Source: Dysgonamonadaceae bacterium (lineage in GTDB: Bacteria; Bacteroidota; Bacteroidia; Bacteroidales; Dysgonomonadaceae). Taken from it: 32,539 nt of DNA. The notes below the pieces were generated by a model. It was not told the DNA's origin. It ran no database searches and saw only the letters and a list, made by a program, of their open reading frames with translations. Where the stretch lies: assembly GCA_031272205.1 (NCBI GenBank), contig JAISUH010000022.1, positions 1 to 32,539 on the forward strand, written 5' to 3'. Positions 19,836 through 24,270 of this stretch are shown one piece after another. Numbering within the stretch: position 1 is the stretch's first letter; each line of letters starts with the position of its first letter. The translations under genes were made by a program, and so were the position numbers.

Positions 19836-20609
19836 CTATTCAATATTTTTCCTTACCCGCGTGAGGAAGGCTTTCATTTTTTCGCCATCTTTCGCCTCGA
19901 TGATGGCCAACAGTTCTTTCAGTTTCTCGCGGATCGACGTCAATTGCTGCGGCGTATAGGGGTTGAACAGGATTTCCGTCAGCAGAAAATCGTCTTCCGA
20001 CAACAATCCCCGCGCAATGTTCATGTGCTTTTTGAAGGTCGTTCCCGGCGCTTCCTGATGCTTCATCACCGACGCAAAAACCAGCGTAGAGGCAAACGGA
20101 ATGGAAAGCGAATAAGCAATGGTTTTATCGTGTTCTTCGAAGGTGTATTCAAAGACGCTGAGGTTGAGCCGCCGGTACAAATCGCGGAAGAACACTTTGC
20201 CGAGATGCGACGATTCCGAAATGATGATCGCACTCTGTGTGCTTAAATCGCTGAGGCTCGCAAAAGTCGGCCCAAACATGGGATGCGTGGAAACGTAGGG
20301 ACGGGCGCGTTCGGCATAAAACTCTTTCAATCCGGTTTTTACCGACGCGATATCCGACAAAATGCAGGTTTGCGGCAGATAGGGCAATACCGCGTTGAAC
20401 GCATCAATGGTATATTTCAGCGTCGCCGCATTGATGACCAATTCGGGAGCGAAGGCTTCCGTTTCGCGAGGGTCGGTCATGCGTTGCGTGTTGTAGGTGA
20501 AACGCAAGCGTTGCGGGTCGGTATCCAAAATGGCGATTTCGTGGTCGAAACTGAGCACATCAGCAAAAAACGAACCCATTTTTCCGGCGCCGAGTATAAG
20601 AATTTTCAT
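19836..20609 (-). CDS. tyrA: prephenate dehydrogenase
   Basis: TyrA is an NAD(P)-dependent enzyme that converts prephenate to 4-hydroxyphenylpyruvate, the Tyr branch. The dinucleotide loop ILGAGKMGSFFADVL is at residues 4-18, with ILSDIASVKTGLKEF and the catalytic-region STHPMFGPTF. At 257 residues it is the short form without an ACT or chorismate mutase domain. The mutase activity is fused to the upstream DAHP synthase instead. It is the last gene of the pheA-aminotransferase-DAHP synthase-tyrA run, so it probably shares the attenuator at the head of the operon. Confidence 0.9.
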   Translation of the reverse strand: MKILILGAGKMGSFFADVLSFDHEIAILDTDPQRLRFTYNTQRMTDPRETEAFAPELVINAATLKYTIDAFNAVLPYLPQTCILSDIASVKTGLKEFYAERARPYVSTHPMFGPTFASLSDLSTQSAIIISESSHLGKVFFRDLYRRLNLSVFEYTFEEHDKTIAYSLSIPFASTLVFASVMKHQEAPGTTFKKHMNIARGLLSEDDFLLTEILFNPYTPQQLTSIREKLKELLAIIEAKDGEKMKAFLTRVRKNIE

Positions 20610-20647: not shown

Positions 20648-21715
20648 TTAATCCCTCCCCGACATAACTACAAACTGTTGGCGTACCGACTCTTCATGGA
20701 TAGCCTCCAACACCTTGCGCATAAATTCGCCCGACATATCCATCTTCTCGGCCTGACTGCTGCGGTCTTTCAAAATCTCGTCGTAACGGTGCGTTTGCAA
20801 CACCGGCATCCCGTGTTCCTTTTTGTACATCCCTATTTCGCGAGAAATACGCATGCGTTTGGATAGGATTTGCAGAATTTCGTTGTCTAACTCATCAATC
20901 TGTCCGCGCAAAACCGACAAATCTTCCGTCGATTGCAGGGTATCGCGAACAACAAGCGATTGCATCACCTCGTTCAGCACACAGGGCGTAACTTGTTGTT
21001 CCTTATCGCTCCACGCATCGTCAGGCGAACAGTGCGATTCAACGATTAAGCCATAGAAATTCAAGTCCATAGCCTGTTGGCTCAATGTTGCAATCAGGTT
21101 GCGCTTGCCGCCGATATGGCTGGGGTCGCATATAATGGGCAAATCGGGGAAACGGCGTTTCAATTCGATGGGGATGTGCCATTGCGGGATGTTGCGGTAA
21201 ATGGTTTTGTCTGATGTGCTGAACCCGCGATGAATAACGCCCAATTTTTTGATTCCTGCATTATACAAACGTTGGATCGCGCCGATCCACAATTCCAAAT
21301 CGGGATTCACGGGGTTTTTGATGAGTACGGGGATATCCACTCCGCTCAATGCATCGGCGATTTCCTGCACGGCAAACGGATTTGCCGATGTGCGAGCGCC
21401 AATCCAAACCATGTCCACGCCGTGTTTCAATGCTTCAAAAACGTGTTTTTCGGTAGCTACTTCGGTGGCGGTGTACATCCCCGTTTCGGCCTTCACGCGC
21501 TTCAGCCACTGCAAGGCCGGCACGCCCATGCCTTCGAAGCCGCCCGGTTTGGTTCGCGGTTTCCAAACTCCGGCGCGGAAAATTTTCACGCCATTCGCCG
21601 CCAACTCGCGGGCTGTTTTCAAAACCTGATCTTCGGTCTCGGCGCTGCAGGGACCGGCGATGAGAAGAGGCCGCTTGTCCTCTATTCCCGGTAATAAAAT
21701 CGATTCGAATTTCAT
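20648..21715 (-). CDS. bifunctional DAHP synthase / chorismate mutase
   Basis: The N-terminal part, about residues 1-265, is a type I-beta 3-deoxy-D-arabino-heptulosonate 7-phosphate synthase, the first step of the shikimate pathway: LLIAGPCSAETEDQV, FRAGVWKPRTKPGGFEGMG, VWIGARTSANPFAVQEIADAL, PVLIKNPVNPD, CDPSHIGGKR and LIVESHCSPDDAWSDKEQQ. The C-terminal 85 residues are an AroQ-type chorismate mutase (LRGQIDELDNEILQILSKRMRISREIGMYK). The start at 21715 (MKFESILLPG) is preferred over an upstream in-frame start at 21784, which overlaps the aminotransferase gene and adds unrelated residues. One protein thus performs the committed step and the Phe/Tyr branch step. Confidence 0.95.
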   Translation of the reverse strand: MKFESILLPGIEDKRPLLIAGPCSAETEDQVLKTARELAANGVKIFRAGVWKPRTKPGGFEGMGVPALQWLKRVKAETGMYTATEVATEKHVFEALKHGVDMVWIGARTSANPFAVQEIADALSGVDIPVLIKNPVNPDLELWIGAIQRLYNAGIKKLGVIHRGFSTSDKTIYRNIPQWHIPIELKRRFPDLPIICDPSHIGGKRNLIATLSQQAMDLNFYGLIVESHCSPDDAWSDKEQQVTPCVLNEVMQSLVVRDTLQSTEDLSVLRGQIDELDNEILQILSKRMRISREIGMYKKEHGMPVLQTHRYDEILKDRSSQAEKMDMSGEFMRKVLEAIHEESVRQQFVVMSGRD

Positions 21716-21743
21716 ATTTTTCTTTTTTTTGATTGTTTCCTGA

Positions 21744-22928
21744 TTATCGGTTTCTTTCCGACATGTATTTTGCAATCCGGCCACAGGCCTCTTTCAGTTT
21801 TTCGGTCGGCGCTCCCAATGAAATGCGCACATAGCGTTCGCCGTTGCTGCCGAAAATAAAGCCGGGCGTGATAAACACACGGGCATGCTGCAAAATTTCG
21901 TCCACAAATTCGGCGCTGCTGCTTTCGGTTTCGTTCATCTTCCCCCAAACGAAGAGGCCGGTCTGCGACTTATCGTACTTGCAACCCGCCACGTCCATGA
22001 TTTTCTCCGCCCAAACACGCCTCTCGGCATAAAGCCGGTTCATCGATCGGTGCCATTCGGGTTTGTTGGACAACGCGGCGACAGCCGCAAGCTGCATCGG
22101 CTTGAACTGGCCGCTGTCGATATTGCTTTTGGCTTTCAACACCCACTTCACAAATTCGTTGTTCGATGCTAACATCCCCATACGCCAACCCGACATATTG
22201 TGCGATTTGCTCAGCGAATTAAGCTCGATGCAGATATCTTTTGCACCTTCTACAGACAAGATACTCAACGGTTTATCATTAAGGATAAAGCTGTACGGAT
22301 TGTCGTGGCAAATAACGATATTGTGTTTTTTGCCGAAGGCTACCAAACGCTCGAACAATTCGGGAGTGGCATTGGCTCCGGTGGGCATATTGGGATAATT
22401 GACCCACATCAATTTCACGTTCGACAAATCCATTTTTTCGAGCGCATCAAAATCGGGCTGCCAATTGTCGTTCTCCAACAGGTCGTAAGGGATGATTTTC
22501 GCACGGAGCAAAGCCGATACCGAGGTGTAGGTCGGATAACCGGGATTGGGTACCAATACGCCGTCGCCGATATTCAGGAAGGCCATGGAAATGTGCAAAA
22601 TACCCTCTTTCGACCCGATAAGCGGCAAAATCTCCTCCGTTTCCAAATCCACGCCGTAGCATTTTTTGTACCACCGGGCAAATGCCTCGCGCAATTCGGG
22701 AATCCCCGTGTAAGGCTGATAGGCGTGAACATCGGGACGTTTTGCGGTTTCAATCAGAGCTTCGATGGTTTCGTCGGACGGCGGCTGGTCGGGGCTACCC
22801 ACGCCAAGGCTGATAACGTTTTTGCCTTCGGCGTTCATTTTGGCTACTTCGGCGAGCTTGGTCGAGAAATAGTATTCCGATATGCTCTTGATGTGTTCGG
22901 CAGGCTGTATGCGATCGTTTGCTTTCAT
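21744..22928 (-). CDS. class I/II PLP-dependent aminotransferase, probably aromatic
   Basis: This is a fold-type I aminotransferase of 394 residues. ISLGVGSPDQPPS, AYQPYTGIPELREA, VPNPGYPTYTSV and WVNYPNMPTGA are family-typical. The likely PLP lysine is K241 in ELNSLSKSHNMSGWRMG, and RISLGAP near the end carries the carboxylate-binding Arg. The ATG at 22928 lies 4 bases after the pheA stop; the longer form starting at 22961 would overlap pheA. Flanked by pheA and DAHP synthase, it most likely converts phenylpyruvate and 4-hydroxyphenylpyruvate to Phe and Tyr. That specificity is inferred from context; the sequence also resembles LL-diaminopimelate and aspartate aminotransferases. Confidence 0.88.
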   Translation of the reverse strand: MKANDRIQPAEHIKSISEYYFSTKLAEVAKMNAEGKNVISLGVGSPDQPPSDETIEALIETAKRPDVHAYQPYTGIPELREAFARWYKKCYGVDLETEEILPLIGSKEGILHISMAFLNIGDGVLVPNPGYPTYTSVSALLRAKIIPYDLLENDNWQPDFDALEKMDLSNVKLMWVNYPNMPTGANATPELFERLVAFGKKHNIVICHDNPYSFILNDKPLSILSVEGAKDICIELNSLSKSHNMSGWRMGMLASNNEFVKWVLKAKSNIDSGQFKPMQLAAVAALSNKPEWHRSMNRLYAERRVWAEKIMDVAGCKYDKSQTGLFVWGKMNETESSSAEFVDEILQHARVFITPGFIFGSNGERYVRISLGAPTEKLKEACGRIAKYMSERNR

Positions 22929-22932
22929 TTTC

Positions 22933-23775
22933 TTATGAACGAATTTGTTTATCTTCCGCATATTCGCCCAAAATCTTCAGGTTGCCCACCAAGGGCAAAA
23001 TGGCGTCGAGCGATTGCTTGTAGCGGTTGTAATCGGTGAATGTGAGGTCGATGTAAAACTGATATTCCCATTCGCGGCCGATGATGGGCAGCGACTGTAT
23101 GCGGGTGAGGTTGATGTCGTAGAACGAAAGCACGGAAAGGACTTTCGACAAACTCCCCTCGCTGTGCGGAAGCACAAAAACCAACGACGATTTATCGATG
23201 GGCGCATTTTTGCGGATGTCCGGCAGTTGTTCTTCCTGCGCCAAAATCAGAAAGCGGGTAAAATTGCGCTTATTGGTTTCTATGGCGCTCGCCAAGGGCT
23301 GCAAGCCGTACATCTCCGCGGCATAAGCGCTGCAAATAGCGGCTTCGCCTGTCAGTTTCTTTTCCGCAATTTCTTTCGCGGCCAAAGCGGTATCGTCGTG
23401 CTCCACAATTTTTACGTCCAACAAGGTATCCAAAAAATCGCCGCACTGCATCAGCGCCATCGGGTGCGACATGATTTCGCGAATGTCCTCGATTTTTTGC
23501 CCCGGCAGGGCCGAAAGCGTGTGCGATATATGCAGTTTATACTCGCCTCCGATTTTTAAGTCATTTATTTTCAGCAAGTCGTGATTCTGCAACAAGCCGC
23601 CGGCTATGGTATTTTCGATGGCCATGATGCCGATGAGCGACGGGTCTTTTTCGGCCTCCGTAAAAATGTCACGGAAAGTCAGGCAGGGAACAATTTCCAA
23701 TTCTTCCCCGAAATATTTTCGCGCCGCAATCTCATGATAGGCGCCCGGAAAACCTTGTATAGCTACTCTTTTCAT
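22933..23775 (-). CDS. pheA: prephenate dehydratase with ACT domain
   Basis: PheA converts prephenate to phenylpyruvate, the Phe branch. The catalytic domain covers about residues 1-180: VAIQGFPGAYHEIAARKYF, MAIENTIAGG and the essential TRF motif at 173-175 (KRNFTRFLIL). The C-terminal ACT domain follows (SSLVFVLPHSEGSLSKVLSVL, then LTRIQSLPIIGREWEYQFYIDL), usually the site of Phe feedback inhibition. There is no fused chorismate mutase. It is the first structural gene of the operon. Its ATG lies 18 bases after the attenuator terminator. Confidence 0.96.
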   Translation of the reverse strand: MKRVAIQGFPGAYHEIAARKYFGEELEIVPCLTFRDIFTEAEKDPSLIGIMAIENTIAGGLLQNHDLLKINDLKIGGEYKLHISHTLSALPGQKIEDIREIMSHPMALMQCGDFLDTLLDVKIVEHDDTALAAKEIAEKKLTGEAAICSAYAAEMYGLQPLASAIETNKRNFTRFLILAQEEQLPDIRKNAPIDKSSLVFVLPHSEGSLSKVLSVLSFYDINLTRIQSLPIIGREWEYQFYIDLTFTDYNRYKQSLDAILPLVGNLKILGEYAEDKQIRS

Positions 23776-23793: not shown

Positions 23794-23830
23794 AAAAAAA
23801 ATCCCATCGTATCACCGACAGGATTTTTTT
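23794..23830 (-). terminator. intrinsic terminator (attenuator) in the pheA leader
   Basis: On the minus strand the RNA folds into a 15-bp stem: seven A, then UCC, then UGUCG, a 6-base loop GUGAUA, then CGAUG, GGA and a run of eight U. Two of the pairs are G-U wobbles. It lies 18 bases before the pheA start codon, after a leader ORF, so it is placed to stop transcription before the operon. The A-run/U-run symmetry means it could also act weakly on the other strand. Confidence 0.85.
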
Positions 23831-23904
23831 GAGATTAGTTCAGTTCATTTTCCTTACACATTCTACATATAAAATCCTGCCTTACCTCTACTAAAGTAAA
23901 AGTA
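23794..23904 (-). promoter_or_regulatory. alternative antiterminator and control hairpins of the pheA attenuator
   Basis: The strand at 23881-23871 (GGCAGGATTTT on the RNA-like strand) can pair over 11 positions, one of them a wobble, with AAAATCCTGTC at 23827-23817, which is the 5' arm of the terminator, so the two folds exclude each other. A third hairpin pairs UUUUACUUU (23901-23893, leader codons 14-16, Phe-Tyr-Phe) with GAGGUAAGG (23888-23880) and would occupy the first bases of the antiterminator strand. A ribosome stalled on the Phe/Tyr codons would free the antiterminator strand. One that reaches the stop codon at 23863-23865 would cover it and let the terminator form. Confidence 0.75.
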
Positions 23905-23940
23905 AAAGAAGAAAGAGTATGTAAAATAAGCAAGTTTCAC
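23863..23940 (-). CDS. Phe/Tyr-rich leader peptide of the pheA operon
   Basis: This 25-codon ORF has a GTG start and a TAG stop. It begins MKLAYFTYSFFFYFYF and ends with SRGKAGFYM: 12 of 25 residues are aromatic (7 Phe, 5 Tyr), with an unbroken block of seven at positions 10-16. There is no Trp. This is the composition of a control peptide for Phe/Tyr attenuation, comparable in design to E. coli pheL. It lies about 20 bases after the predicted transcription start and 32 bases before the terminator stem. There is no in-frame ATG upstream, so the GTG is the likely start. It is too short for ordinary gene finding. Confidence 0.82.
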   Translation of the reverse strand: MKLAYFTYSFFFYFYFSRGKAGFYM

Positions 23941-23966
23941 TATGAAAATCTTTGAAAAATTCGTTG

Positions 23967-24000
23967 CAAATTTACTACAAATTTTCAACAGAACAACAAA
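23967..24000 (-). promoter_or_regulatory. predicted promoter of the pheA operon
   Basis: The minus strand has TAAATTTG at 23974-23967, an exact match to the -7 consensus TAnnTTTG. Upstream is TTTGTTG at 24000-23994, of which the second TTG lies 19 bases before the -7 element, close to the usual -33/-7 spacing. Transcription would begin near 23960, about 20 bases before the leader peptide GTG. Confidence 0.6.
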
Positions 24001-24156: not shown

Positions 24157-24270
24157 TATCTTTGCTCCCGAGTTAATTGTTTTTTATTTTTCATACAACT
24201 ACAAAGTAAAAACTTTTTTCTCAATCTCAGGTTGGGGCATGCCCCAACCTGAGATTTCTTTCTTACTTTA
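24157..24270 (+). ncRNA. candidate small RNA with promoter and strong terminator hairpin
   Basis: TATCTTTG at 24157-24164 matches the Bacteroidota -7 consensus and would start a transcript near 24171. It would run through AT-rich sequence without a convincing ORF into the 34-bp palindrome at 24223-24256, followed by TCTTTCTTACTTT, giving an RNA of roughly 90-100 bases. No -33 element is clear and no family is recognised. The palindrome could instead be an isolated element. This is a hypothesis from promoter and terminator placement only. Confidence 0.35.
24223..24256. repeat. 34-bp perfect palindrome
   Basis: The left arm AATCTCAGGTTGGGGCA (24223-24239) is followed directly by its exact reverse complement (24240-24256). 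The flanks extend it imperfectly: CAACTACAAAGTAA (24196-24209) on the left resembles the reverse complement of TTACTTTAGTTG (24263-24274) on the right. It may be a bidirectional terminator or a miniature mobile or REP-like element. It is unusual because it stands between divergent promoters, not between convergent genes. Confidence 0.85.

Follow-up and report, generated by a model that had tools for sequence, protein, structure and literature searches.

Judged from sequence comparison, it is highly likely that the pheA-aminotransferase-DAHP synthase/chorismate mutase-tyrA operon in the window (the whole 32,539-nt stretch of DNA analysed here, from a Dysgonamonadaceae bacterium) is controlled by a ribosome-mediated transcription attenuator that would sense charged tRNA-Phe and tRNA-Tyr. 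Leader-peptide control had been proposed in a preliminary description of this DNA, and the proposal is supported by a conserved leader ORF, a promoter motif, a terminator, and covarying pairings that exclude one another. The leader region has the four-segment anatomy of an attenuator, with a protector formed by segments 1 and 2, an antiterminator formed by segments 2 and 3, and a terminator formed by segments 3 and 4 (Table 1).

Attenuation by leader peptides is textbook knowledge in the proteobacteria, where the pheA and trp systems of Escherichia coli are the classic cases. In E. coli pheL-pheA, a leader ORF rich in codons for the end product is combined with protector, antiterminator and terminator pairings upstream of pheA. 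The element in the window has the same logic and the same gene downstream as this system (Rfam Phe_leader, RF01859). However, its leader carries Tyr codons as well as Phe codons, it would control the aminotransferase, DAHP synthase/chorismate mutase and tyrA genes too, and its promoter motif is of the Bacteroidota type. The proteobacterial Rfam model RF01859 does not match the locus (15.2 bits, compared with a gathering cut-off of 55).

The genes of the operon were assigned with Pfam, and the assignments agree with the Phe/Tyr biosynthesis operon of the preliminary description. The top NCBIfam matches of the aminotransferase are under their cut-offs, as is the match of tyrA to the NCBIfam prephenate dehydrogenase (6.4e-19). 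The listed ORF for the DAHP synthase-chorismate mutase fusion opens at a GTG, and the real start is likely a later ATG. Nearly all close relatives retain the order pheA-aminotransferase-DAHP synthase/chorismate mutase, with or without tyrA at the end. In other families a tyrA-like gene may lie between the aminotransferase and DAHP synthase genes, or none was detected by the search used.

Table 1. Features of the putative attenuator and of the operon downstream, in window coordinates.
Feature	Position	Strand	Basis
Bacteroidota-type promoter: TTG (23996-23994), 19-nt spacer, TAAATTTG (23974-23967)	23967..23996	-	Sequence motif
Leader ORF	23863..23940	-	Translation and conservation in relatives
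Segment 1, protector 5' arm, within the leader codons; covers both UUUACAUA and the Phe/Tyr run	23896..23934	-	MFE fold; counted on 67 relatives
Segment 2, protector 3' arm, with the antiterminator 5' arm GGCAGGAUUUU (23881-23871) inside it	23853..23891	-	Folds, duplex tests
Segment 3, AAAAAAAUCCUGUCG, used both as 3' arm of the antiterminator (23827-23817) and as 5' arm of the terminator	23816..23830	-	Folds, covariation
Segment 4, CGAUGGGAUUUUUUU, terminator 3' arm and U-tract	23795..23809	-	Stem energy, covariation
pheA, prephenate dehydratase, first operon gene	22933..23775	-	Pfam PDT 3.5e-54
PLP aminotransferase class I/II, second gene	21744..22961	-	Pfam Aminotran_1_2 2.1e-63
DAHP synthase-chorismate mutase fusion, third gene	20648..21784	-	Pfam DAHP_synth_1 5.9e-39, CM_2 1.6e-24
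Prephenate dehydrogenase-like tyrA, fourth gene	19836..20609	-	Pfam PDH_N 3.8e-6

The leader ORF lies directly before pheA and encodes VKLAYFTYSFFFYFYFSRGKAGFYM. It has a GTG start and a TAG stop, and translation confirmed what had first been read from it, namely 25 codons of which 12 specify Phe or Tyr, with codons 10-16 all aromatic (FFFYFYF). A search of NCBIfam with the peptide gave no match. Many close relatives have their leader stop after codon 16-18 (...FYFYFSR, then the stop). A 2-nt difference before this usual stop moves the stop 7 codons downstream in the window, which makes its 25-codon ORF a local variant of a leader that usually has 16-18 codons; the length first described is true for the window and is not typical.

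When the 250 nt ahead of pheA were dinucleotide-shuffled, an equally aromatic 8-codon stretch arose in 13 of 5000 shuffles, so the window sequence by itself is suggestive only (p about 0.003), and it is conservation across the class that makes the evidence for the leader ORF decisive. Given these shuffles, and given that U-rich DNA favours Phe codons, the aromatic ORF could be seen as the noise of a U-rich tract, with the hairpin behind it acting as the terminator of another gene or as a bidirectional insulator. We give this almost no credence. Past the leader, the next gene points the other way (24421, + strand), which leaves no close upstream gene on the operon strand to terminate. ORF, arm and terminator also follow one another in the same order across the class, and the comparative data contradict this explanation.

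The comparison began from a scan of genome contigs for pheA, which gave 80 relatives, and a wider draw over the order and class provided a less biased sample. An ORF of the form M...F(A/T)Y.F.FYFYF.R is found in almost all of the 80 relatives having enough upstream sequence. Dysgonomonas and Parabacteroides are among the genera with the element. A Phe/Tyr-rich ORF at this position in related genomes had been proposed as a check on the leader peptide, and the wider search did not refute it. Of the 58 Bacteroidales genomes that were testable, 52 have such an ORF ahead of pheA (one, L150, marginal), and 38 of the 41 genomes tested in the rest of class Bacteroidia have an aromatic leader at this place. 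Six order-level genomes have pheA but gave no leader, and one of these (L171/L232) is also without the operon. Three class-level genomes (L179, L187 and L189) have no aromatic leader within 1500 nt upstream of pheA; in these, pheA lies directly behind a coding sequence that resembles the end of aroA, with no intergenic region. Outside the class, the leader was present in four and absent in four of the eight best-scoring loci tested, a sample that is small and not representative.

Of the 186 pheA-upstream regions examined, 163 have an ORF in which 6 or more of 8 residues are aromatic. The same density is reached in 44 of 1860 shuffles and in 4 of 580 control windows taken from genomes. When 41 relatives were searched with a covariance model of the element, nearly every genome of the family gave one match above 95 bits, and the next-best matches reach at most 51 bits. 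Wherever the position of pheA is known (G133, G019, G002 and the window), the strong matches sit at pheA. One genome of the same family (G357) has a marginal match only. The draft genome G366 carries two copies of the Phe/Tyr leader element (L265 on contig C36 and L266 on contig C21), which represent either a second operon or contamination.

The start codon of the leaders is ATG in 158 of 172 loci and otherwise GTG. The peptide sequence drifts between relatives except for its aromatic content. A codon-position substitution test among close relatives was uninformative: RNA pairing constrains the third positions, and exchange between Phe and Tyr alters second positions. The absence of Trp, a further point of the preliminary description, holds in the window and fails in 45 of 172 relatives. 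For instance, the Proteiniphilum-type loci (L042, L044, L054, L057 and L060) have a Trp codon inside the aromatic run (SFWFYFYFSR), which perhaps adds Trp sensing over the common DAHP synthase.

The codon content of the leader points to dual sensing of Phe and Tyr. Alternatively, the attenuator may sense Phe only, and the Tyr codons would be passengers, given that UAU and UAC are one step from UUU and UUC and fit the pairing. Counted over the final 12 codons of each run, Phe does outnumber Tyr (926 vs 574), and the frequent exchange between the two at second codon positions implies that they may be interchangeable filler for RNA pairing. However, Tyr is present in the aromatic run of 169 of 172 leaders, across lineages with different RNA arms, and with tyrA and the common first enzyme both encoded in the operon, Tyr is a product of the regulated genes. 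We regard sensing of Phe only as unlikely.

The promoter motif lies about 26 nt 5' of the leader start codon, and from its position the transcript is predicted to start near 23960. The consensus promoter of the preliminary description was not borne out as a sigma-70 promoter, for which a scan gave no match at the leader; the motif there is of the Bacteroidota type. The motif TAnnTTTG occurs at most 90 nt upstream of 136 of 171 leaders, compared with 8% of shuffles. Both parts of the motif together precede 114 of the 171 leaders, compared with 0.7% of shuffles. A perfect 34-nt palindrome, AATCTCAGGTTGGGGCATGCCCCAACCTGAGATT, also lies past the leader promoter, at 24223-24256 in the intergenic region between the divergent genes.

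The intrinsic terminator previously placed between the ORF and pheA was found at 23830-23795. It has a 15-pair stem with two G-U pairs, a 6-nt loop and an energy of -16.8 kcal/mol, and its end is 19 nt from the pheA ATG (23775). In relatives the terminator has a median energy of -16.2 kcal/mol and is located a median 30 nt before the gene.

Pairing statistics were obtained from 172 loci that have both a leader and a terminator, and covariation from an alignment of 67 close sequences; related sequences were counted as separate, and the duplex and pair counts from both sets are therefore descriptive rather than independent tests. Complementarity between segments 2 and 3 beats that of shuffled versions of segment 2 at p<0.05 in 92% of the 172 loci (mean z -4.6), and segment 2 starts a median 9 nt past the last aromatic codon (10th-90th percentile 7-12). 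Between lineages, the antiterminator arm and its partner change together (GACAGGAUUUU/AAAAUCCUGUC, GAGCAGGAU/AUCCUGCUC, GCGAGGCUU/AAGCCUCG and CGAGACCU/AGGUCUCG). Among the 67 sequences, 92.6% of the antiterminator cells are paired, with 35 two-sided changes compared with 6 in shuffles and 2-11 when the arms are slid. For the terminator, 60 cells have two-sided changes, compared with 17 in shuffles.

The protector pairing, between the leader codons and segment 2, gives a duplex at p<0.05 in 66% of loci and in 80% of close relatives. Its covariation is moderate (81.5% of cells paired vs 80.9% in shuffles) and weaker than that of the other pairings, in part because this arm is also protein-coding. 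The clearest protector covariation involves the first base of an Ala/Thr codon, which pairs with segment 2 as GC in 31, AU in 20 and GU in 7 sequences; the GC/AU pair has 20 double changes.

The whole leader folds as protector and terminator (-49.7 kcal/mol, z -5.8), and when most of segment 1 is removed the antiterminator forms. The stop codon abuts the antiterminator arm in 89 of 172 loci, and in 78 of 172, including the window, the ORF runs through the arm. As modelled, both layouts would give the same switch.

The strong terminator and antiterminator, the long protector hairpin, and the putative status of leader translation could also fit a riboswitch-like region, in which the ORF is incidental and the terminator is controlled by a protein or ligand. 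This is very unlikely. A search of Rfam at the gathering threshold found no family in the window or in nine relatives, and across the class the RNA sequence varies, whereas the aromatic codons, the ATG or GTG start and the fixed arm spacing are kept.

From these features we infer that the attenuator is transcribed from the motif promoter, that ribosomes stall on the aromatic run, and that readthrough is regulated. In this scenario, RNA polymerase would start about 20 nt 5' of the leader ORF, and a ribosome would follow it and translate the leader; the mechanism depends on this coupling of translation to transcription. With charged tRNA-Phe or tRNA-Tyr in short supply, the ribosome would stall in codons 10-16. 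The stalled ribosome (about 23913-23893) would cover the inner part of segment 1 and leave the antiterminator arm at 23881-23871 largely free. Segment 2 could then pair with segment 3 to form the antiterminator, and the polymerase would continue into the operon. If both charged tRNAs were plentiful, the ribosome would reach the stop codon that abuts or lies inside segment 2 and mask this segment, so that segments 3 and 4 would pair and transcription would end 19 nt before pheA. If the leader were not translated, the expected outcome is likewise termination, as segment 1 would pair with segment 2.

Termination would be expected to release an RNA of about 165 nt, and either this RNA or the peptide might be an independent trans regulator (an sRNA or a small protein). 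The leader peptide peTrpL of Sinorhizobium has been reported to act in trans (PMC7298713), and the locus has a weak match to BTnc231 (Rfam RF04180), a Northern-validated sRNA of Bacteroides thetaiotaomicron (PMC7366714). We rejected identity with BTnc231: the match has an E value of 0.026 but scores 21.3 bits against a cut-off of 80.4, and the arms fit poorly. The BTnc231 consensus has no leader codons, the alignment shows terminator-like similarity only, and among the matches listed from 149 genomes of the order the positions are elsewhere than pheA. Given that this match appears to be a terminator-like chance similarity, and that the peptide is not conserved beyond its aromatic content, we consider a trans role in place of attenuation highly improbable.

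Attenuation in cis may not be restricted to the Phe/Tyr operon. In the same genome, hisG is preceded by a His-rich leader ORF, MERNGLHHHHFHTCNQAR, and a terminator (L222, contig C16), with an antiterminator-like complement to the terminator arm (p 0.002). Similarly, an Ile/Leu/Val-rich leader ORF, MNNNNIDILVISILLLESFSV, and a terminator are found 186-120 nt before a leuA match (L223, contig C49), again with an antiterminator-like complement to the terminator arm (p 0.008). A leader ORF with a Trp-Trp pair, MNRILLNEYWWRPCNFQQVVR, precedes trpB (L201, C98:28992-29121); a simple duplex test did not recover an antiterminator at this locus. Given leader ORFs for his, leu and trp beside that for phe/tyr, leader-peptide attenuation looks general in the source genome, as far as can be read from its sequence.

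The trpB leader lies in a match to the Bacteroid-trp RNA (Rfam RF01692) of 39.7 bits, under the cut-off of 49. Bacteroid-trp is a cis-regulatory motif of Bacteroidetes (Weinberg et al. 2010, PMC2864571). The element in the window is on a different operon and concerns a different amino acid, and RF01692 has no match there at the gathering threshold.

Leader-peptide attenuation is barely documented in the phylum Bacteroidota. The attenuator survey of Naville and Gautheret (2010) does not mention Bacteroidetes, and in the B. thetaiotaomicron map, sORFs resembling leader peptides are mentioned in general terms only (PMC7366714). A transcriptome study of Flavobacterium psychrophilum from 2021 describes structured 5' elements ahead of pheA and hisG that are conserved in Flavobacteriaceae and have no Rfam match, and it reports strong clues of attenuation by leader peptides at operons for amino-acid biosynthesis (PMC9723704). 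The F. psychrophilum pheA element shares its gene and phylum with the element in the window, and the class-level leaders found here (MSNNRFYFSNSFYFFFSRSKDCAMVI) are possibly the same element. The main text of that study does not provide the leader sequence or its amino-acid content, a pairing model, or the distribution beyond Flavobacteriaceae. It was the only paper on a phe leader in Bacteroidota, and the Phe/Tyr content, the pairing model and the class-wide distribution were not reported, in the literature searched, whose scope excluded most subscription journals. Given the Rfam, Flavobacterium and Bacteroid-trp precedents, the kind of element is known and its pheA member has been partly reported.

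From the perspective of evolution, we lean towards the view that a dual Phe/Tyr attenuator was already present in the ancestor of class Bacteroidia, as part of a general strategy of leader peptides for phe/tyr, his, leu and trp. Translation initiation in these bacteria makes little use of Shine-Dalgarno sequences. If the attenuator is ancestral, the ribosome would follow RNA polymerase closely enough to control termination despite this.

The leader before pheA is a class-wide element without an Rfam family, and ordinary gene calling is likely to miss ORFs of this kind, with 16-28 codons. Based on the comparative sequence analyses presented here, attenuation logic of the proteobacterial type very probably controls the synthesis of aromatic amino acids through most of class Bacteroidia, in gut and environmental members. 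The pheA leader may serve as a simple tool for examining transcription-translation coupling in Bacteroidota.
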